Source: Pirellulaceae bacterium
GTDB lineage: Bacteria; Planctomycetota; Planctomycetia; Pirellulales; Pirellulaceae
Length of the DNA: 41,855 nucleotides
NCBI GenBank assembly: GCA_028281725.1
Contig: JANQJJ010000027.1
Coordinates: 1 to 41,855, forward strand
Direction: 5' to 3'
The notes beneath the pieces are model-generated. The model was given only the letters and a program-made list of their open reading frames with translations, ran no database searches and was not told the DNA's origin. Positions 1 through 21,803 of this stretch are shown in pieces. Made by a program: the position numbers and the translations under genes. The first letter of the stretch is position 1, and each line of letters starts with the position of its first letter.

Positions 1-1628
1 TGCACTGTCGGCGCGTGAAGGAGATTGTTCCGCGTGGATGCTCCGCTGAATTTCCAGACCGATTCCTTTGGGTTGCAGTCAAATTTCCAAATCAGCTCGC
101 CCTTGCCGTCCGAAGTTCCCCACGGGTCAAAACTGTACAGCCAGCCATCGCCGCCAGGAAAGATCACCTGAGTCTTGCCAGCCAACTCGGCAACCACAGG
201 TGATCCCCACTGCCCATGCAGAACGTTTTGTCCCGGCGAATCGTCTTGCCACAGAAGTTTGCCGGTCTTTTTATCAACGGCAATAAAGCTGGGTGCGTCG
301 GCCAATGGAGGCGTATGCGTTTCGTCGACACCGTTTCCGGTGACGGCGAAAATGCGGTCTCTCCAGACGGCAATCGTGCAGGTGCTGAGGTTGTGAGGAC
401 GTACGCCAAGTGCCGACATCATATCCAGCCGCCAAACGACATCCGCTTCCTTGTCATCGGTAAAGGCTTCGTTTTGTTCCGGTCCATCGTTCCGATCATC
501 GTGGAATCCCATCGTATCCAGGCAGACGATTTCGCAGCGATTGGTCACATACCACAATCGATCACCTTCGACGCATGGACGACTGGTCACACCCTGCAAC
601 GGCCAATCGTGGACTCGTCCCGTCGACAATTTTTCGTTGGAATGTTGCCATAGAAATTTGCCGTCGGGCTTTCGGAAGCACAGCAACACGCCCAGATCAA
701 CATGGCTGGGGTATCGTGCGAGGTAACCGTGAGCATTGTTGGTTCCGATATAGACGTGCTTATCATCAACGACCGCTGCCCGCATCGTTTGCGATCCCAG
801 CGGCATCCGCCATCGAACGTTTTGCCCCGACTCAGCATCCCATGTCAAAACGGTCTTCGAGTCATCAGCCAATTCCGGGTTCACCTGTTTGGCCGGCGCG
901 TCAAGCTTAGGTGCAGGGCTCGCTGATGTTGGGTTCGCTGATGTCGCCCACTTCGGCGGCTTGTTTTGAACCTCGATTTTAGCCAGCCAAGTTGCTCCGC
1001 GTTTCAAGGTCACTCGGTCGCCCAAGATTTCGATGCTTGCCGATTCATCATCGACCTCGATATGATACGTGCCGGCGCGCAGCCGAGTCGTGATCCCTTC
1101 CTTCGACACGGTCAGCTCTTCGACGCACCTTTCTCCATCGACAATCCGGATAGGCACGGACGCTTCCGAATTGCTCTCGATTCGAATCGTGCCTTTGCCT
1201 GATTCGAGAAAAATGAGGACTCCGGCAAAAAGCAGCAACGCCATCGCTGTTGCAAGGATCCGCCTCGGCCATGGCGATCGTCGGGAACCTCCGCTTCCGA
1301 TCACTCCAGCGACTTCATAACCGCCGATGCGGCCAAAAGAATTCGGATCATCCGTCGGCGCAAGATGCGCTAGCACTTGTTCGACTTGTGAATCAAACCG
1401 ACCATCGACTTCCGAGCCGAACCGATCGGAACTCGGCAAACTATCCGCGCCACCGAGCAGCTTGGTGGCTTCTTCCCAGACGGCTTCGTCGGCGACTCGA
1501 CGTTCCAGTTCTGCCCCGCAGCTGGCGCACTGATGGAGGTGTCGCGTCAATTCACGTTCGGCATCAGAGCTAAGATCGCCGTCTACAAACGCGGCCAGTC
1601 GCTTTGGATCGCAGATCAGCTGACTCAT
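1..1628 (-). CDS. Putative membrane anti-sigma factor (zf-HC2-like) fused to an extracytoplasmic PQQ-like beta-propeller; 3' end truncated by the window edge
   Basis: Absent from the ORF track because its stop lies outside the window. Manual reverse translation from ATG at 1628: MSQLICDPKRLAAFVDGDLSSDAERELTRHLHQCASCGAELERRVADEA... (HxxxCxxC zinc-finger pattern), TM helix RRILATAMALLLFAGVLIFL, then propeller-like text such as KTQVIFPGGDGWLYSFDPWGTSDGKGELIWKFDCN and FIAVDKKTGKLLWQDDSPG. Confidence 0.85.
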   Translation of the reverse strand, partial: MSQLICDPKRLAAFVDGDLSSDAERELTRHLHQCASCGAELERRVADEAVWEEATKLLGGADSLPSSDRFGSEVDGRFDSQVEQVLAHLAPTDDPNSFGRIGGYEVAGVIGSGGSRRSPWPRRILATAMALLLFAGVLIFLESGKGTIRIESNSEASVPIRIVDGERCVEELTVSKEGITTRLRAGTYHIEVDDESASIEILGDRVTLKRGATWLAKIEVQNKPPKWATSANPTSASPAPKLDAPAKQVNPELADDSKTVLTWDAESGQNVRWRMPLGSQTMRAAVVDDKHVYIGTNNAHGYLARYPSHVDLGVLLCFRKPDGKFLWQHSNEKLSTGRVHDWPLQGVTSRPCVEGDRLWYVTNRCEIVCLDTMGFHDDRNDGPEQNEAFTDDKEADVVWRLDMMSALGVRPHNLSTCTIAVWRDRIFAVTGNGVDETHTPPLADAPSFIAVDKKTGKLLWQDDSPGQNVLHGQWGSPVVAELAGKTQVIFPGGDGWLYSFDPWGTSDGKGELIWKFDCNPKESVWKFSGASTRNNLLHAPTV

Positions 1629-2224
1629 AAGTGGGATGCCTCGAATTCCGCAACTGCTTTTCGTAATCGCTGCATGACTCGGCAGCGAGCGGTGTAAATC
1701 GTTCCAAGCTCTTTGCCTAGCCTTGCAGCCGCTGCCGGGTTGCTCAGACCATCAATGACCGTCAGCTTGAAGGCCAGCCAAGTGTCCGGTTGCACGTCGC
1801 CGCTGACAATCTCCGCAGCGCGACGATATCGCTCTCGGCGAATCTCCCAATCGATCAACGACTCCGTCTCCGAGTCGGCTTGTGGATACGCAGCCAGCAA
1901 CTCCTGCATTGACGAACCGCCGGCGGCCTCATCTGCCCCGCGTCGCGAGATCGCATTGACGATCGCGTTACGAGTGACTCGCCTTAGCCAGTGACGGAAC
2001 CGCGTCGATGCGTCCTGCTTTTTCCAACGACCAATCGCGGACGCGACCGCCAGCAAGACTTGTTGCGACAGGTCCTGAGCATCGGCTTCCTGAAACCCGC
2101 GAGCTACTGCCGTTCGAAAAATGACCGGACGATACATCGAAACAAATTGTTCCCACGCCACCCGGTTTTCAGGGTCCTTGACCTGAACAATCAGGCTTTC
2201 GCGGGTCTCGGGGAACTGTGTCAT
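1625..2224 (-). CDS. ECF-family RNA polymerase sigma factor
   Basis: ORF 1625..2281; likely start MTQFPETRESLIVQVKDPENRVAWEQFVSMYRPVIFRTAVARGFQEADAQDLSQQVLLAVASAIGRWKKQDASTRFRHWLRRVTRNAIVNAISRR, a sigma region 2-like N-terminus with a region 4-like HTH near the C-terminus. Stop overlaps the downstream start as ATGA. Confidence 0.88.
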   Translation of the reverse strand: MTQFPETRESLIVQVKDPENRVAWEQFVSMYRPVIFRTAVARGFQEADAQDLSQQVLLAVASAIGRWKKQDASTRFRHWLRRVTRNAIVNAISRRGADEAAGGSSMQELLAAYPQADSETESLIDWEIRRERYRRAAEIVSGDVQPDTWLAFKLTVIDGLSNPAAAARLGKELGTIYTARCRVMQRLRKAVAEFEASHL

Positions 2225-2509: not shown

Positions 2510-5500
2510 TTATTCCTTTTCCGCGGCGTCGATTTCGTTTTGTAGCTCTCGGTATTGCTGCAGGCAGTCATCGATCGAGTTGCGCAGACGCTCGAGCTGA
2601 GTATTGTTGATCGCTGCCGACTCCAGCACAGGGCGCAATCCGTCGTAGAGTAGCTGGAATTGGCTGCGGACCAGATCGGTCATCACGCGCGGAACGGAGT
2701 GTTGGACCAGTACCTTTTGTTCGGGTAGTTCTCGACTGGCCGACTCCATGCGCCGGGCTTCCGTGGAGATGGCATCGCTCACCTGGCCACCTAGCGAGCC
2801 CAAGCCCGCGTTGAGATGTGCCAAGCCTTCCTCAAGTGCGGCAGCGCGATCGTTCGCGTGACTGGCGGCAATGGCCTGCGACATCGTACGGCGGATGGAC
2901 TCCAGACCATCGCGAAGACCGGACAGTATCCGCAACACTTGGGCCGTGCTATCGTCGCCCTCCAAACCCTGCATGCGGACGCTCTCCACGTAGGCGTATT
3001 TGATTTGCTCCCAGCGGTCAGCCTCTTCGGTTGTTAACGTGCCCAACAGTTCCCTAAACTTCAGCAGATTCGATTCGCCATCTCGCGTTAGCGTCTGCGC
3101 GTCCTGCTCGTAGTTCGCCATAATCAAGCTCTGCAACTCTGCCTCGTTCATGACAGGTACCACGCGTTCGGCTATACGGTTCATATTGCGATAGCTGCCC
3201 TGCAACTTGAATGGAGGCTCGGTACGGTACGCATCGGCCTGAGCCGCACTGCGGATGTAAGTTCGGTTGACGCGTAAAACAATGTCACGCACCTTCAACA
3301 GCTTGGTAATCACCGAGATCATGTCCGATAGCTGGTCACCGGCCAAGTTGGATTCCAGTTCCAGCCGCTCGGTTGTGCCCAACTCGGCGGCCCGAATGAT
3401 GGCGCGTTGGTCTCGGCTGGAGCAGCGCCCCAGCTGTTGTAGCGACGAGTTGCTGGTCAGGCAGTTTTCGATGTAGCTCAACTCGAACGCTTCGCGCGCG
3501 TCCCCGATAATTTCTCCCAAGTTGTAAACGTCGGCTCGATTGGACAACATGTCGGGTATCTGAAAACGATCGCCGCTTTCGGTGTAGGGATTGCCCGCCA
3601 TAACGACGACCACCTTCCGGCCTCGCAGATCGAAGGTTTTGGGCTGGCCGCGGGAGACGCCTTCAATTCTTCGCGTCGCATCGCACAATGGAATAAACTT
3701 TTGCAGCAGTTCCGGATTGCAGTGTTGAATGTCATCCAAATACAGCATGACATTGTCGCCCATTTCGAGCGCCAAATTGATTCGACGCACCTCTTCGCGC
3801 GCCGACGCGTTCGTTGCCTCGGCGGGATCCAGCGACGTGATCTGGTGTCCCAAGGCAGGTCCGTTGACTTTGACAAACACCAGCCCTAGTCGGTTGGCAA
3901 TGTACTCCATCAACGTCGTCTTGCCGTAGCCCGGCGGACTGATCAGCAACAACAGCCCCATTCGATCGGTTCGCTTGCCTTCGCCGGCTGCGCCAATTTG
4001 TTTGGCCAGGTTGTCACCTACCAGCGGCAGATAAACTTCGTCGATCAGCCGGTTGCGTACGAAGCTGGTCAGCACCTTCGGTTTGAACTCGTCGACGCGC
4101 AGTTTTTTGCTGGCCTCCTGGATCAGTCGATGCTTCGTATGGCGCAGTGCCGTGAAGCGAGGGAGCGTCTCGCGGCGGTAGCTATCCAGCCGAGATAGAA
4201 ACTCGTGATAGTTCAGTCTGAGCGTGCCGCCGGAAATTCTGGGGTGATCACCGACCACCGAATCCAGTTGCAGCGCTACCGGTACGTCTGGACCGGGCGT
4301 ATACCCATCGCGGTCGCTGAGCAGCAACGCCGCCACCTCCAGTCGATAATTGCTTATCGGATCGGGGTCTTCCGCTGCGCCTGATTGTTCCGCGATGTAT
4401 CCATCCACGGCGTCGCAGGAGAGCGTCCAGGCGGCAACCGGGTCATCACCATTGGCCGCAATCGACTCAGCCAATCGGCCGCGCTCGTCGGATGGTAAGT
4501 GGTCTTGCAAGTGTTGCAGCACGTGGACGGCTCTGGGGCTGGCGACGACCTTGTCGCATCGGCTGGTTAGCTGCGAAAACAGGTAGCGAGCCGCCAACGA
4601 GACTTGCGGAGGCGATATGATCCCTTTGCCGCATTTCATCATCAACCTTCTAAGACGCCGCTCGTAGCCTTGGCCCGCGACGGATTTCGGCAGCATGGCA
4701 GCCACGGTTGCGAAGCCAGAAATCCATGTCTCCATCTTGGCTCGACGCTCTGCCGGCACGAGTGTGTTCCAGACAAACCAAGCCGGGCCGCGGACGTCGG
4801 GTGCAAACTTCAGCAAGCCCAGCTGCTGGTCCATTTCTAGCAGTGCGCCGAGTATTTTGGCTGCGTCACGATCGTGGACACCCCGCGAATAGCCTTCGTC
4901 GTGCCGCTGCTGCATCTGAGCGCGTACGAGCTCGACACGAGCGTCCGGCTGGAGCTTCAGGAACTGTTTCGATGACTCTCGCAATTCGTCGAATAGTTCC
5001 GCAGCCAGAAATTCGCCGCGATAGATTTCTTCAGATTCGCTCGGTAGCAACTGTTGCCACAAGTCCTGGGCTTCGTCGAGTGCCGGGTCGCTTAGGTCCT
5101 GGAAGAACTGGGTACCGGTCAAGTGCATTTGCAGCCGGCCGCTGCGCACCACCGACGTCAGCTCGATCGTCTGTCGATTGACTGAGAAACGGTGTCGCCC
5201 CAGCTGGATCAGCCCTTCTTCGCCGGTGAATAAATCTTGCCGATCTCTCAATTGCCGTAGCGAGTCGTCCGATACCGTCTTCAGGCGACTTAAGATATCG
5301 TCCATGCGTACCGTGTCACCGAGCTCTTGCAACTGGTCGGCGATCTGCCGCACCTTGTCGACCATAGGGTCGGAGGCGAAGTAAGACCGAAGAGCATCGG
5401 CATCGGACAACCGCAGAGCTCTGGAGGTGATGCCCTGCATGATGCGGTCTGCCGCCGACGCGAGCGACTGAGCTCGGCGCGAACGCGCCTCGATCAGATG

Positions 5501-7732
5501 TTGACGGCGAGCTTCGAACGCTTCGTACAGCGATTCCCGTTTTTCCGTCAGCCTCAGCAGCAATTCATCGAATTCGGCAAAGCGACCTTCCAATTCTTCC
5601 AGCTGCAGCATCATCCGAGTGAGCGCATCGTCTAGCTTTTCCGGCGTATCCGCCGTCTCCAGCGCGCCGGCGGCCGCTTGATCGAGAAGCTTCGTCTGGG
5701 ACGCAAAGTCGGCTTCCATTTCACCTGAGAGCAGGTCGCGAATGCGGGCTTTGAGTCCGGAGCGAACTCGATTCAATTCCGCCAGCAGATCGCCGGTCTG
5801 ATCGACGATCGCCGTCCTCTGCGTGAGATCTTCGATCTTGAGTTGCGAGACGGTTTCGATCAGCAACTCCAGATCGGAACCGATTTCCGCCAGTTGCTCT
5901 TCCAGGTCGCGTCCGTCGGCAGCGGACCCGACCCGGTCGACCGCCTCTTCTGCGACGGAGATCCGCTGGCCGTAAGGCGTTAGCGATTTGGGGTTCAATA
6001 AAAACTGGACACAACGGTGGCCCAATCTCTCGGCCGCTTCAGCCAGCCGGGTTTCCAGATCGACGACCGCCGCCTCGTCGATAAACCGCCGCCCGCGGAG
6101 TCCAATGGCATGGCCACGTTGCTCGCGTATGCCAGCCAACCGGACCACGAAGTCGCCTATGGAATCGAAGGGCGACCGCGCGATGGCCTTGAGCAATTCG
6201 GTTGCGCTGGTTTGTGTTTCGACCAGTGCCTGCTCGGTCTCGCGGCGAACGCGTACGACTTTGTCAAATTCCTCGACCGCCGCGGTCGCCGTGTCACGAA
6301 TCTTCGCTAGCGGCTCAGAGAGCCGCATCGTCTCCTCTCGATCTAACCAGAAATAGCTATCCAGGACATCCGTGGAGCGTTTGGCCAAGTCGAGATAGAG
6401 ATCCGCGTAGGAGTCGTCCTTATCGATCAATTGCAGCAGTTCTTGGCACTCGGCCATACCGCGCACCAACTCGCGATTGCCGATCTTGTAGAGCATGGAG
6501 TCCGTGGCGACTTCAGCACGAAAGTTAGGCCCGACATACGGCGTGTGCCAAAGCTGCAGCGCGTGGTGCTTCTGAGCATGATCTTGAGAACGAAACGAGA
6601 TCATTTGCCCGTCGTCAAAAAACGCTTGGCCATGGCAAATCAGAGGTGTGTCGACTTCCTGGCGAATCAGATTGTAACGCAGGTGCAAGTATGTCCCGGA
6701 CTCCAGGTCGGTGAAGACGTAAAGGAAGTCCTCACCGTTGGGTGCCGCGATCGTCCGCTCATACAGCAGATTCTGCATGCCGTGATCAAACAGCTTGTGG
6801 TTGCCGGTTTGCAAATAGAATCCGCCGGGGAAGATGATGCCCTGATCGTCCGGAAGCAGGACGCAAGCTTGTGCCATCGCATCCATACGCGAGACCTGCT
6901 GACGTTTGGTGCTGTAGACCAGATATCGGAAATCCTTTTCCAGATAGGGTTTCATCTTCAGCAGAACGATGTTGCCCATCACGCAGTAGTGGATCTCGGC
7001 ATCGTCTAGCGTCTGATCTACGTTGGCGACAGGCTCAGAGTAGATGCCGCTTCCATCTTCGGTATTATCTTCGATTTTGATCGTCAGATCACCGCCGACG
7101 CATTCGACGAACACCAGATCGTTAATCGAGATATGCGGGTGCAGGCCGCTACGATGCTGATCCCGGGTCGCGCGCTGCCAGCGAAACGCATGTTGCTCCG
7201 GAAAGCGGACTTCTTGATCGCTACGATTATCCACGTAGCGAAGCCGGCTCCCCTCAATGGCCCATTTGAAGGCTTTGATGTCCGTCGGAGTCTTGCCAAC
7301 TTGGAAGACAAAGTAGACCAGCGGGCCGGCGCGAAAAAACCGGGAGAAGGTCGTGTCCTTGTAGTAGCGATACAGTTCACCAAAATCTTGGCGGAAACGA
7401 TCGTCGAACAGTTCTGACAACTCGACTTGATGCGCGATTTCTCCTTCGAGCCGATACAGGCTCAAGACGTCATCGCAGTTGATTTCGGTTTTCAGCCCAA
7501 ATTGGACGTTGTAGCCCAGCAGGACCAAATCGCCAATCGCCAACAAGTCGCGCGGTATGCAATTGTGGTCCGTGGACACGTGCGCCGTGCCGCCCAATCG
7601 CGTTTCGATGTTGCCGAAGACGGCCGAGCGAGCCGCATTGAGTTTCTCAAATCGTTCACGTAGATCGGCGGCTGCATCGCGCAGTCGATTGCGAAGGACT
7701 TCGTAGGTACCAGTTGCCAGCGATTCTGCCAT
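2510..7732 (-). CDS. Giant AAA+ ATPase, resembling the 'DNA repair ATPase'/DUF3686-type proteins found near flotillin genes
   Basis: 1740 aa; Walker A-like LLLISPPGYGKTTLMEYIANRLG, Walker B-like NVMLYLDDIQHCNPELLQKF, sensor-like VVVVMAGNPYTESGDRFQIPDMLSNRADVYNLGE; long coiled-coil-like central region. Confidence 0.8.
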   Translation of the reverse strand: MAESLATGTYEVLRNRLRDAAADLRERFEKLNAARSAVFGNIETRLGGTAHVSTDHNCIPRDLLAIGDLVLLGYNVQFGLKTEINCDDVLSLYRLEGEIAHQVELSELFDDRFRQDFGELYRYYKDTTFSRFFRAGPLVYFVFQVGKTPTDIKAFKWAIEGSRLRYVDNRSDQEVRFPEQHAFRWQRATRDQHRSGLHPHISINDLVFVECVGGDLTIKIEDNTEDGSGIYSEPVANVDQTLDDAEIHYCVMGNIVLLKMKPYLEKDFRYLVYSTKRQQVSRMDAMAQACVLLPDDQGIIFPGGFYLQTGNHKLFDHGMQNLLYERTIAAPNGEDFLYVFTDLESGTYLHLRYNLIRQEVDTPLICHGQAFFDDGQMISFRSQDHAQKHHALQLWHTPYVGPNFRAEVATDSMLYKIGNRELVRGMAECQELLQLIDKDDSYADLYLDLAKRSTDVLDSYFWLDREETMRLSEPLAKIRDTATAAVEEFDKVVRVRRETEQALVETQTSATELLKAIARSPFDSIGDFVVRLAGIREQRGHAIGLRGRRFIDEAAVVDLETRLAEAAERLGHRCVQFLLNPKSLTPYGQRISVAEEAVDRVGSAADGRDLEEQLAEIGSDLELLIETVSQLKIEDLTQRTAIVDQTGDLLAELNRVRSGLKARIRDLLSGEMEADFASQTKLLDQAAAGALETADTPEKLDDALTRMMLQLEELEGRFAEFDELLLRLTEKRESLYEAFEARRQHLIEARSRRAQSLASAADRIMQGITSRALRLSDADALRSYFASDPMVDKVRQIADQLQELGDTVRMDDILSRLKTVSDDSLRQLRDRQDLFTGEEGLIQLGRHRFSVNRQTIELTSVVRSGRLQMHLTGTQFFQDLSDPALDEAQDLWQQLLPSESEEIYRGEFLAAELFDELRESSKQFLKLQPDARVELVRAQMQQRHDEGYSRGVHDRDAAKILGALLEMDQQLGLLKFAPDVRGPAWFVWNTLVPAERRAKMETWISGFATVAAMLPKSVAGQGYERRLRRLMMKCGKGIISPPQVSLAARYLFSQLTSRCDKVVASPRAVHVLQHLQDHLPSDERGRLAESIAANGDDPVAAWTLSCDAVDGYIAEQSGAAEDPDPISNYRLEVAALLLSDRDGYTPGPDVPVALQLDSVVGDHPRISGGTLRLNYHEFLSRLDSYRRETLPRFTALRHTKHRLIQEASKKLRVDEFKPKVLTSFVRNRLIDEVYLPLVGDNLAKQIGAAGEGKRTDRMGLLLLISPPGYGKTTLMEYIANRLGLVFVKVNGPALGHQITSLDPAEATNASAREEVRRINLALEMGDNVMLYLDDIQHCNPELLQKFIPLCDATRRIEGVSRGQPKTFDLRGRKVVVVMAGNPYTESGDRFQIPDMLSNRADVYNLGEIIGDAREAFELSYIENCLTSNSSLQQLGRCSSRDQRAIIRAAELGTTERLELESNLAGDQLSDMISVITKLLKVRDIVLRVNRTYIRSAAQADAYRTEPPFKLQGSYRNMNRIAERVVPVMNEAELQSLIMANYEQDAQTLTRDGESNLLKFRELLGTLTTEEADRWEQIKYAYVESVRMQGLEGDDSTAQVLRILSGLRDGLESIRRTMSQAIAASHANDRAAALEEGLAHLNAGLGSLGGQVSDAISTEARRMESASRELPEQKVLVQHSVPRVMTDLVRSQFQLLYDGLRPVLESAAINNTQLERLRNSIDDCLQQYRELQNEIDAAEKE

Positions 7733-13096: not shown

Positions 13097-15256
13097 TCAA
13101 TATGCAGCGGAGCTTACATTGTGTAAACGGAACAAACTGGCACGCTCGGTACACTCGGGGTCCGAGCGGATGACTTTGCAGGGCAAGTAGGTATCCATTG
13201 TTCCCGCAGCGTCAGGACTGTTGGGATGGAGACTCAGATCGCCGAGCATCTGCTGACTGGTCGCAGCGGATTCCGATGGCGTGTTGAATACATAGGGACG
13301 AATGACCACGACCAACTCGCTACGCGTACGACTGGAGGCTTGGCGTTTGAAGAAAAAGCCTAATCCAGGAATGTTGCCGAGTACCGGCACCTGATCCTTG
13401 GAATCGCTGACCTGCTCTTCGATCAAACCACCGAGCGCTACCGCCATACCATCCTGGGCGACCACCGTGCCACTGACCGTTCTCCGCCTGACCGTGTCGA
13501 CATTGACGCTGGTCACTCCGGCGCCTCCGGCGTCGGGCACCGGGATCGACGCGCCCCCCAAAATGCGCTCGGAATTCTCTTCGACGACTCGCAAAGTCAC
13601 GGTTCTATCCGCATTGATATTGGGAGTAATCAGCAGAGACTGCCCGACATCTCGCAGTTCGGTAATTGGCGTAGCCGCGACGGCTCCGTTGACTGCATTG
13701 AATCCTCCCACGACCTGAGATGGCGTAAAGCCAACAGTAAAGGGCAAGGTATCGCCGACAAAGATACGGCTGACTTCGTTGTTGGCCGTCAGGATCAGCG
13801 GCGTGGCCAAGGCCGTCACGCGGCTTTGGCTCTCAAGCAACTGCATACGAAACTGAAAATTGTTGTCGACCACCTGAAACGTCAGAGAGCCGGGAACGTT
13901 GCCGGACAGGCCCAACCCGGCAGGTAGCGTTCGCGCCGCGGCGTTGGCACCAGGAAACGCCGGAGCTAGATTGCCATCGCTGAAGGTTACTGCCTCGTCG
14001 TCGCCACCGGAAAAGTACTCAAAGGCTGAGTTGATTCCGTCAGCCAGACCGATGCGTAGCACTTTGACTTCCAGCAAGACCGTCGGCGTGGGCACGTCCA
14101 GCTGCTGGACCAGACGTTCAATCTGCTGCATCGATTGCGCGTCGCTCGAGCGGACGATGACCTGATTGTTTCGGCGAATGGTCGACACGTAAATCGTCGC
14201 TTCATTGCGCCGCATCAAATCCGCGCGGTCCTCTTCACTGATGCGTCCGTTATCTGCCAGTTGGTTCTCTAGCCGCTGGATTTCCTCCGCCGCGAGGTTG
14301 TCCAAGCTGGTGTTCTCCGAGATGGTTGCGGCCGGGCTTACGCGACTGCGAGACCGAGCGGTCAGGCCGCCAAGCCCTGGCACACCGCCGCCGAGGGCAC
14401 CGCCAAATCCGCCCAGGAGGTTGTTGCCCAAGCCGTTGTTGAGTCCCAGCTGCCCACGGGGGCCGCCTGGTCCTCCGGTTTCAAACGTTCCCAGCCCAAG
14501 GGAGCGGCCATCGACCAGATCGAAACGGCTGAATCGCTGGGTCAGGTCAATTAAGTCGTCGGTATCGGCGTCTGCGATGTTCAGTTGCACGCGGTCCCCA
14601 AACACCTGTCCGATCACCTGAGCGACCGCCGACGGATTTGGGTACAGCAGCGTGAATACGCGAGTCTCTTCCTCACGGAAGCTGGTCAGATCCTTTTCAT
14701 ATTCTTCGGAGGTTGCGATCCGCACGATCCCCGATTTCTCGTCGATGCGATAGTAGAGCCCGTTGGCCTTGACGATCGCGTCTAGAGCATTGATGGAAGA
14801 CACGTTTCTCAGATAGACCGTGACCATCGTTTCACCCGCATCGGCGGATGTAATGACGTTCAATCCGGCCTGCTCAGAAAACAGCTTCATGGCCTCCGAT
14901 AGCTTGACTTCTTCGAACTGGACGAGCTCCAGCATCTTTCTCTGAGCCTCAATCGCCGGCGAAGCGGGAGGCGGCTGAACGGGTTCGACGATCAGCGATC
15001 CTGGCGGAGCCGGGGCCTCCTGAGCGGGGGATGGCAGGGGATGATCGTCCAAATGCAGTGAGCTGCCGTCGTTTTGATCTTCCGCGCTGCCGCCGGGCCC
15101 ATCCGCGGTCGCCGATTGGCGGCTGGAGTGGTTTGCACCTTGGGATGGATCTTGTCCCAACGGATGACGAGGTTGCAGAATCATCAACACGAAAGCTACT
15201 AGAGCAAACTTTCGAAACGATCCTTCTGCGAGAACAGTCATCTTATATGCGTCCAT
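13097..15256 (-). CDS. Type II/III secretion secretin (GspD/PilQ-like)
   Basis: 719 aa; N-domain-like sequence (VQFEEVKLSEAMKLFSEQAGLNVITSADAGETMVTVYLRNVSSINALDAIVKANGLYYRID) and secretin-like core (VLLEVKVLRIGLADG..., LILTANNEVSRIFVGDTLPFTVG, GMAVALGGLIEEQVSDSKDQVPVLGNIPGLGFFFKRQASSRTRSELVVVIRPYV). Start may be the internal ATG (MTVLAEG) at 15241. Confidence 0.93.
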   Translation of the reverse strand: MDAYKMTVLAEGSFRKFALVAFVLMILQPRHPLGQDPSQGANHSSRQSATADGPGGSAEDQNDGSSLHLDDHPLPSPAQEAPAPPGSLIVEPVQPPPASPAIEAQRKMLELVQFEEVKLSEAMKLFSEQAGLNVITSADAGETMVTVYLRNVSSINALDAIVKANGLYYRIDEKSGIVRIATSEEYEKDLTSFREEETRVFTLLYPNPSAVAQVIGQVFGDRVQLNIADADTDDLIDLTQRFSRFDLVDGRSLGLGTFETGGPGGPRGQLGLNNGLGNNLLGGFGGALGGGVPGLGGLTARSRSRVSPAATISENTSLDNLAAEEIQRLENQLADNGRISEEDRADLMRRNEATIYVSTIRRNNQVIVRSSDAQSMQQIERLVQQLDVPTPTVLLEVKVLRIGLADGINSAFEYFSGGDDEAVTFSDGNLAPAFPGANAAARTLPAGLGLSGNVPGSLTFQVVDNNFQFRMQLLESQSRVTALATPLILTANNEVSRIFVGDTLPFTVGFTPSQVVGGFNAVNGAVAATPITELRDVGQSLLITPNINADRTVTLRVVEENSERILGGASIPVPDAGGAGVTSVNVDTVRRRTVSGTVVAQDGMAVALGGLIEEQVSDSKDQVPVLGNIPGLGFFFKRQASSRTRSELVVVIRPYVFNTPSESAATSQQMLGDLSLHPNSPDAAGTMDTYLPCKVIRSDPECTERASLFRLHNVSSAAY

Positions 15257-20282: not shown

Positions 20283-21803
20283 ATGTCCCTTTCGATTACG
20301 ACAGACGACTCCAGCGCACCGGCTCGAGGTCTCGATCTGGATCAAGTCCGGATCGATCCTACTTGGGCGCGCCGTGTGCCGGCGCCCGTTGCCATGCGGC
20401 GGCGGGTCCTACCGCTATGCCGCGTCGCAGATCGGGTGGTAGTCGCGTGGGCGGGTGGTGATGCGGAATCCGTCGAGCGCCTTCTGCAGCGTTACCTGGA
20501 TGTCGGTTTCGAGATGGTGGAGGCCGAGCCGGAATCGCTACGGCGGAGCCTGCTCAAAGTGTATGACGCAGCCAGTCGCGGCGCGGCGGGCAACGCCTCG
20601 CAGGCCCTCAGAGCCGGTGGCAACCAGCCGGAAGGCGCCGAGGATGCGGTCGCCCTATGCGATGAGATGTTGTTGGCGGCGCTGCTGCGCAGGGCATCGG
20701 ACATTCATTTGATTCCGACTGAGGAACAACTATCGGTGCAACTTCGCGTGGACGGACAACTGGAGAGCTACGGCGATTTACCCCGGGAACTGCAAAGCCC
20801 CGTGGTCAGTCGGCTGAAAGTGCTGGCGGGACTGGATATCGCTGAGAAACGCGTTCCGCAAGATGGCAGGTTCACCGCCCGAATCGGCGGAAAGCAACAA
20901 AAGGTAGACATCCGGGCCGCGACCCTGCCAACGCGTCATGGCGAACGAGTCACCATGCGTCTGCTGTTGCCACTGGACGCTTCCGCCTCGCTCGAGTTGC
21001 TGGGTATGAGTGGGAGGGACTTGGCAAGTTTTCAGGCAGCGACTGGGCGGCCGCACGGTCTGGTTCTATTGACCGGCCCCACTGGCTGCGGCAAATCGAC
21101 GACCTTGTATACCGCGATCGAACAACTGAGGACGTCCCGCGGCGGCAACGTGATCACGATCGAGGATCCCGTCGAGTACGAGATGCCTGGCGTGACGCAA
21201 GTCGAGGTCGATTCGGCGGACAAAGTGAACTTCTCTAAAGCACTCCGCAGCATCCTTCGCCATGATCCGGATGTGATCATGATCGGTGAGATACGGGACT
21301 CGGAAACAGCGGAGATTGCCATCAAGGCGTCGCTGACCGGGCACTTGGTGTTCAGCACCTTGCATACCAACACGGCCGCTGGCGTCGTGACGCGCTTAGT
21401 GGATCTGGGGGTCGAACCGTTCCTGATTGCCGAAACCCTTCGTTTGTCGGTGGCTCAACGACTCGTTCGTCGGCTGTGCCCTCATTGTCGCGAGCCTCGT
21501 TTGATGTCCCGTGCCGAGGCACAAAGGCTCGACAGCAATGAATTGACAGGGCGTACGGTCTATGAACCCAAAGGCTGCGTCTACTGCGCTGGACGCGGAT
21601 ACTGCGGGCGGATTGCCCTGTTCGAAATGCTCGAGAGCAACGAAAAATGCGCGGCGATGATTTCTGCGGGTGTTACCGAGGTGGAGTTGCTTGAAGGCAT
21701 GCGAAAAGAAAACCAACCTTTGCTGGTTGACGATGGAATCGAAAAAATCCTCTCCGGGACAACCACTGTGCAGGAAGTGCTCAGTGCGGTTGCCAAGTGG
21801 TGA
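20283..21803 (+). CDS. GspE/PilB-type secretion ATPase
   Basis: Walker A LLTGPTGCGKSTTLYTAIEQL, ITIEDPVEYEMPGVTQVEV, Walker B-like DPDVIMIGEIRDSETAEIAIKASLTGHLVFSTLHTN, zinc-type CPHC...CVYC. Confidence 0.96.
   Translation: MSLSITTDDSSAPARGLDLDQVRIDPTWARRVPAPVAMRRRVLPLCRVADRVVVAWAGGDAESVERLLQRYLDVGFEMVEAEPESLRRSLLKVYDAASRGAAGNASQALRAGGNQPEGAEDAVALCDEMLLAALLRRASDIHLIPTEEQLSVQLRVDGQLESYGDLPRELQSPVVSRLKVLAGLDIAEKRVPQDGRFTARIGGKQQKVDIRAATLPTRHGERVTMRLLLPLDASASLELLGMSGRDLASFQAATGRPHGLVLLTGPTGCGKSTTLYTAIEQLRTSRGGNVITIEDPVEYEMPGVTQVEVDSADKVNFSKALRSILRHDPDVIMIGEIRDSETAEIAIKASLTGHLVFSTLHTNTAAGVVTRLVDLGVEPFLIAETLRLSVAQRLVRRLCPHCREPRLMSRAEAQRLDSNELTGRTVYEPKGCVYCAGRGYCGRIALFEMLESNEKCAAMISAGVTEVELLEGMRKENQPLLVDDGIEKILSGTTTVQEVLSAVAKW

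Follow-up and report, generated by a model that had tools for sequence, protein, structure and literature searches.

A kinase-less zinc-finger and PQQ-propeller partner of a planctomycetal ECF sigma factor, with predicted descent from transmembrane Ser/Thr kinases and a possible direct anti-sigma role

Locus organization and domain architecture

The stretch of DNA analyzed here (the window, 41,855 nucleotides) is the whole of contig C493 within a 6.3-Mb Pirellulaceae MAG that is split over 568 contigs, with a completeness of 85.5% and a contamination of 5.7%. At the left end of the contig, both on the minus strand, lie a gene for an ECF-type sigma factor and a gene for its partner protein; the start codon of the partner and the stop codon of the sigma gene overlap in an ATGA. 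The partner-gene reading frame leaves the contig at base 1 and its propeller is therefore incomplete; a search of the whole assembly for the missing C-terminus, using the tail of the closest homologue, returned a 44% paralogue as the only match. The features discussed below are as follows, with the basis for each in brackets.

1625..2224, minus: ECF-type sigma factor, 199 aa, with region 2.2 reading D48-A-Q-D51 (Pfam; identity to relatives' sigma factors)
3..1628, minus: zinc finger/TM/stalk/PQQ protein without a kinase, 542 aa, incomplete (ORF; Pfam)
1365..1628, minus: predicted anti-sigma domain, residues 1-88 (zf-HC2; AlphaFold2 model; alignment)
1518..1541, minus: Hx3Cx2C zinc motif, H30, C34 and C37 (invariant in 32 aligned homologues)
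1287..1352, minus: kinase remnant, residues 93-114, DDPNSFGRIGGYEVAGVIGSGG (alignment; Pkinase start in L087; 89 controls)
1287..1319, minus: Pkinase model positions 1-11, corresponding to residues 104-114 (alignment; Pkinase start in L087)
1286..1287, minus: junction G114/S115 (alignments; flanking codons)
1200..1271, minus: transmembrane helix, residues 120-143 (hydropathy 2.43; AlphaFold2 model)
966..1199, minus: extracytoplasmic beta stalk, residues 144-221 (alignment with the stalk that follows the kinase in zinc-finger kinases; eight strands in the model)
3..872, minus: PQQ beta-propeller, residues 253-542, incomplete (Pfam PQQ_2; 79% identical to the G028 propeller)

Among zf-HC2, Pkinase and PQQ_2, the three domains that bear on the original prediction of a finger-propeller protein stripped of its kinase, Pfam detects the first at residues 10-37 (23.4 bits, cut-off 22.2) and the last at residues 397-502 (E 1.5e-11), and reports no kinase domain between the finger and the transmembrane helix of the 542-aa protein. 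The glycine-loop phrase that had been noted in this interval is present as quoted in ORF 3..1628 on the minus strand: residues 85-114 (VLAHLAPTDDPNSFGRIGGYEVAGVIGSGG, 1287..1376) are directly followed by SRRSPWPRR and the transmembrane helix, which the RR..RR motif preceding it orients with the N-terminus inside. An AlphaFold2 model built on 32 rows (mean pLDDT 73, pTM 0.35) places helices at residues 8-15, 21-33, 35-57 and 78-88 of the N-terminal domain and assigns the kinase remnant no secondary structure, at low confidence. In the 199-aa sigma factor, Pfam recovers Sigma70_r2 with an E value of 3.1e-9, together with a weak Sigma70_r4_2 match.

Elsewhere on the contig, the gene beside the sigma factor (2510..7732, minus) encodes a 1740-aa protein with DUF3686, DUF7902 and AAA domains, where DUF3686 is annotated as an ATPase involved in DNA repair. 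A secretin (13097..15256, minus) and a type II/IV secretion ATPase (20283..21803, plus) are encoded on opposite strands, a pair compatible with a type II secretion or pilus locus.

The segment between finger and membrane resembles a kinase N-terminus

Residues 93-114 correspond to the part of ECF-linked Ser/Thr kinases that comprises the run-up, the first strand and the glycine loop, and this likeness to kinase N-termini is far beyond chance. About a dozen zinc-finger kinases of the same genome have N-termini that align with residues 1-115, up to GxGG, and in three of these proteins the part after the kinase aligns with residues 115-221. The motif YEVAGVIGSGG is identical in a kinase from another genome (L087, G048), where the Pfam Pkinase domain begins at its Y, so that 11 of the 263 kinase-model positions are kept in the window. 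Alignment with full-length kinase homologues places the junction at residue 114|115: across 32 rows, a single clean gap from residue 115 spans the entire kinase, and H30, C34, C37, G111, G113 and G114 are invariant. Approximately 270 residues, comprising the kinase and the post-kinase linker, are thus absent between G114 and S115.

To see what follows this segment in other proteins, homologous N-segments were gathered from surveys at the family, order and class levels (up to 400 genomes each), and their downstream content was read by script. The surveys are a sample, in which up to 30 loci were opened per search and the remaining matches were judged by open-frame length, the short ones being opened as well. 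In all 89 of the distinct readable homologous N-termini from relatives the kinase starts directly after the loop, with a few of the 89 carrying frameshifts later in the kinase; beyond these, two segments are cut by contig ends and the window stands alone without a kinase. The segment is thus not a generic linker, and no homologue of the short architecture that is unrelated to kinases was found in the surveys of up to 400 genomes per level; the original prediction had named both as possible refutations, and its core claim stands against them. Neither the family, order and class surveys nor a separate contig scan yielded a second genome with the kinase-less architecture. Candidates for further kinase-less relatives, namely proteins with matches across residue 115 (G684, G244, G392 and others) and relatives in which the open frame is short, turned out without exception to contain a kinase, a frameshift or a contig end. 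Frameshifts or stops within ECF-linked kinase genes of relatives were seen at L053, L151/L176, L156/L169, L171 and L172.

Phylogeny points to kinase loss

The window sigma factor is 74-77% identical to those of genomes G139, G048 and G192, each encoded directly upstream of a zinc-finger kinase. In the sigma tree it groups with eight kinase-bearing operons (support 99/98), and in the N-segment tree the window groups with six of those eight (95/96). Because both the sigma factor and the N-terminus nest inside kinase-bearing operons, the absence of the kinase is a derived state, and we consider it very probable that the domain was lost rather than never present. Together with the lack of a Pfam kinase and the alignment gap from residue 115, this nesting upholds the proposal that the kinase was lost right after the glycine loop.

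The sigma factor itself bears no change that would mark the loss, since the DxxD of region 2.2, kept as D48AQD51, has the form DAxD in nearly all kinase-bearing relatives as well. NG86 estimates of dN/dS are 0.08-0.10 for the sigma factor and 0.06 for the propeller, values that cover the whole divergence at high dS and include time before the loss. A different configuration is seen in genome G180 (L127, G180:C1:5973000-5979500, approximately 4149-5041, minus), where a sigma factor 60% identical to that of the window is followed by a finger frame that ends in TPTDD, immediately ahead of the kinase phrase, and that has neither a kinase downstream nor a transmembrane helix; this is a second, separate truncation.

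Mosaic origin of the stalk and propeller

The closest relatives of the part before the junction are not those of the part after it, so that the history involved module exchange and not only an internal deletion. The best match of the stalk is a kinase from G155 (55-61% identical), the cognate sigma factor of which is only about 40% identical to that of the window. Grouping the window stalk with the relatives of its front is rejected in AU tests, with p values of 0.016 (three closest) and 0.0004 (eight), and of 0.0008 when the test was repeated with more rows. The first two values also reject the simplest history, in which a clade-A kinase gene underwent an internal deletion and retained the stalk it already had. 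The original prediction of a simple kinase deletion therefore stands in that the kinase-less state is derived, but has to be amended to involve module exchange.

The closest propeller, at 79% identity, belongs to a 1344-aa zinc finger-kinase-TM-stalk-PQQ protein (L126) encoded in the single-contig genome G028, from another genus; the next-best match in the whole family set is at 62%, and the two propellers pair in the tree with 100/99 support. The spacing from stalk to propeller is approximately 330 residues in G028 versus approximately 30 in the window. Taken together, the window protein is a mosaic without a kinase, joined at residue 114|115. In genome G545, a type-A front and kinase are joined to a B-like stalk, and pairing this stalk with that of the window gave an AU p value of 0.196; a two-step history in which stalk exchange came first and kinase loss later is thus not rejected and may apply here. 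The kinase may have been lost when the parts were joined or through a deletion afterwards.

For several operons, e.g. L149/L177 (G545), L054 and L055, the stalk tree conflicts with the trees of the kinase and the sigma factor. Given these conflicts and the G545 join, stalk exchange between ECF-linked kinase systems looks common. The same type of PQQ propeller is further found fused to HExxH-containing, multi-TM proteins that look like BlaR1/M56 peptidases by sequence (L084, G138:C20; L085, G126:C409).

Proposed direct control of the sigma factor and competing explanations

Several features of the partner protein and its operon are anti-sigma-like: the order of four helices, the intact zinc ligands, the transmembrane helix, the ATGA overlap and a co-encoded sigma factor with DxxD. 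In class I transmembrane anti-sigma factors, helices 1 and 4 touch sigma4 and sigma2 (PMC7406223). Compared by sequence with solved structures, the finger domain has the anti-sigma factor DdvA as its best, weak match (E 0.11); when the model was searched by fold, the stalk accounted for most of the signal, giving lectin-like matches below significance and none at E <= 0.001.

A shift from phospho-signaling to direct anti-sigma control, as originally suggested, is consistent with the sequence. We favor, with some reserve, the reading that the partner gene descends from zinc-finger transmembrane Ser/Thr kinases, has lost the kinase and now works as a direct anti-sigma system, with the direct mechanism taken by itself being put slightly ahead of even. 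In such a scheme, the zinc-finger domain would keep the co-translated sigma factor bound on the inner side of the membrane, the external propeller would sense a ligand or the state of the envelope, and a conformational change or proteolysis would free the sigma factor. Phosphorylation would not be needed, as region 2.2 is already acidic, and the retention of D48AQD51 would make direct hold and release possible without a kinase. That this represents a natural conversion of a phospho-ECF system into a direct anti-sigma one, by joining the front of one kinase to the TM-stalk-propeller part of another, is in our view an evenly balanced proposition.

Alternatively, the gene could be a decaying remnant in which, without a kinase, signaling has ceased and the sigma factor is locked in either the held or the free state. 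The kinase, probably the signaling part, is indeed gone, and similar operons contain broken copies, such as the G180 finger gene that ends at TPTDD beside an open sigma frame, as well as frameshifted kinases. The window gene, however, runs for 542 codons without a stop, with two joins in frame, its zinc ligands and sigma factor are intact, and dN/dS is low for both sigma factor and propeller, albeit as an average over long periods, all of which makes decay unlikely. Less likely still is an assembly artefact: two kinase genes would have been wrongly united in the contig, the front coming from one and the back from the other, and the true gene would still encode its kinase. The source is a contaminated draft MAG, the gene sits at a contig end and the two sides of the join have different closest relatives, and because no second genome among those surveyed shows the junction we continue to give a chimeric contig a small share of the probability; on the other hand, the join is in frame and at a domain border, the candidate relatives have no long exact stretch in common there that could mislead an assembler, composition does not shift along the gene, and the rest of the assembly contains no unaccounted-for clade-A kinase (the best match reaches 62-63% identity).

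We regard as similarly improbable that phosphorylation persists, with another cellular kinase targeting the sigma factor or the finger in trans and the leftover segment serving as a docking site. The genome has at least two dozen kinase-domain matches, and S53 lies beside the region 2.2 motif, where serine phosphorylation has been proposed for ECF59/60 (PMC8103513). Yet the site is not conserved, as its position is Ala in the three closest kinase-keeping sigma factors and Thr or Ser in others, and the leftover segment is predicted to be disordered and lacks every catalytic motif.

Direct control, if correct, would bear on a wider question: ECF-linked kinases are abundant in Planctomycetes, and there is no settled view of how they act on their sigma factors. 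Reviews class these systems as phosphorylation-regulated (PMC8999054), even though the sigma factors are acidic in region 2.2 and the kinases possess an anti-sigma-like finger. In a natural member that has no kinase, control by the finger is separated from control by phosphorylation: were the finger alone to control the sigma factor, the kinase would be a modulator and not the switch, and a true conversion would mean that the finger of planctomycetal ECF-linked kinases is a genuine anti-sigma domain that works without the kinase.

Comparison with known systems

The closest known systems are the planctomycetal ECF-linked zinc-finger transmembrane Ser/Thr kinases (e.g. ECF59, ECF61, ECF62 and ECF217), with which the window has in common a sigma factor directly upstream, a zf-HC2 N-terminus followed by the phrase DDP..LGRIG.YEV.GV.G.GG, and a transmembrane helix, stalk and variable extracytoplasmic end. 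The window protein differs from them in lacking approximately 270 residues of kinase and linker. The G028 protein, with a stalk 51% identical in addition to its closely similar propeller, retains a full kinase and approximately 330 more residues before the propeller, and its operon has a sigma factor (40%) and a finger (31%) of another branch.

Class I zinc transmembrane anti-sigma factors (ZAS/ASDI, e.g. ChrR- or RsiW-like) likewise have a helical Hx3Cx2C N-terminus (PMC7406223), a single transmembrane helix and a co-encoded ECF sigma factor; the window protein, for which sigma binding is inferred, is set apart by the kinase remnant before its transmembrane helix and by its kinase ancestry. 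With the ECF43 pairs EcfP/PknT and EcfK/PknS it has in common the pairing of an ECF sigma factor with a transmembrane sensor, here one of kinase ancestry. In ECF43 sigma factors, uncharged residues with a conserved Thr replace the acidic DxxD of region 2.2 and activation requires phosphorylation (PMC8999054, PMC13147305), whereas the remaining kinase-linked ECF groups retain motifs of the DAED kind and may function in another way (PMC8999054). The window sigma factor is not of the ECF43 kind, in that D48AQD51 is kept and no Ser/Thr beside the motif is conserved among close relatives: it retains DxxD next to a sensor that has no kinase.
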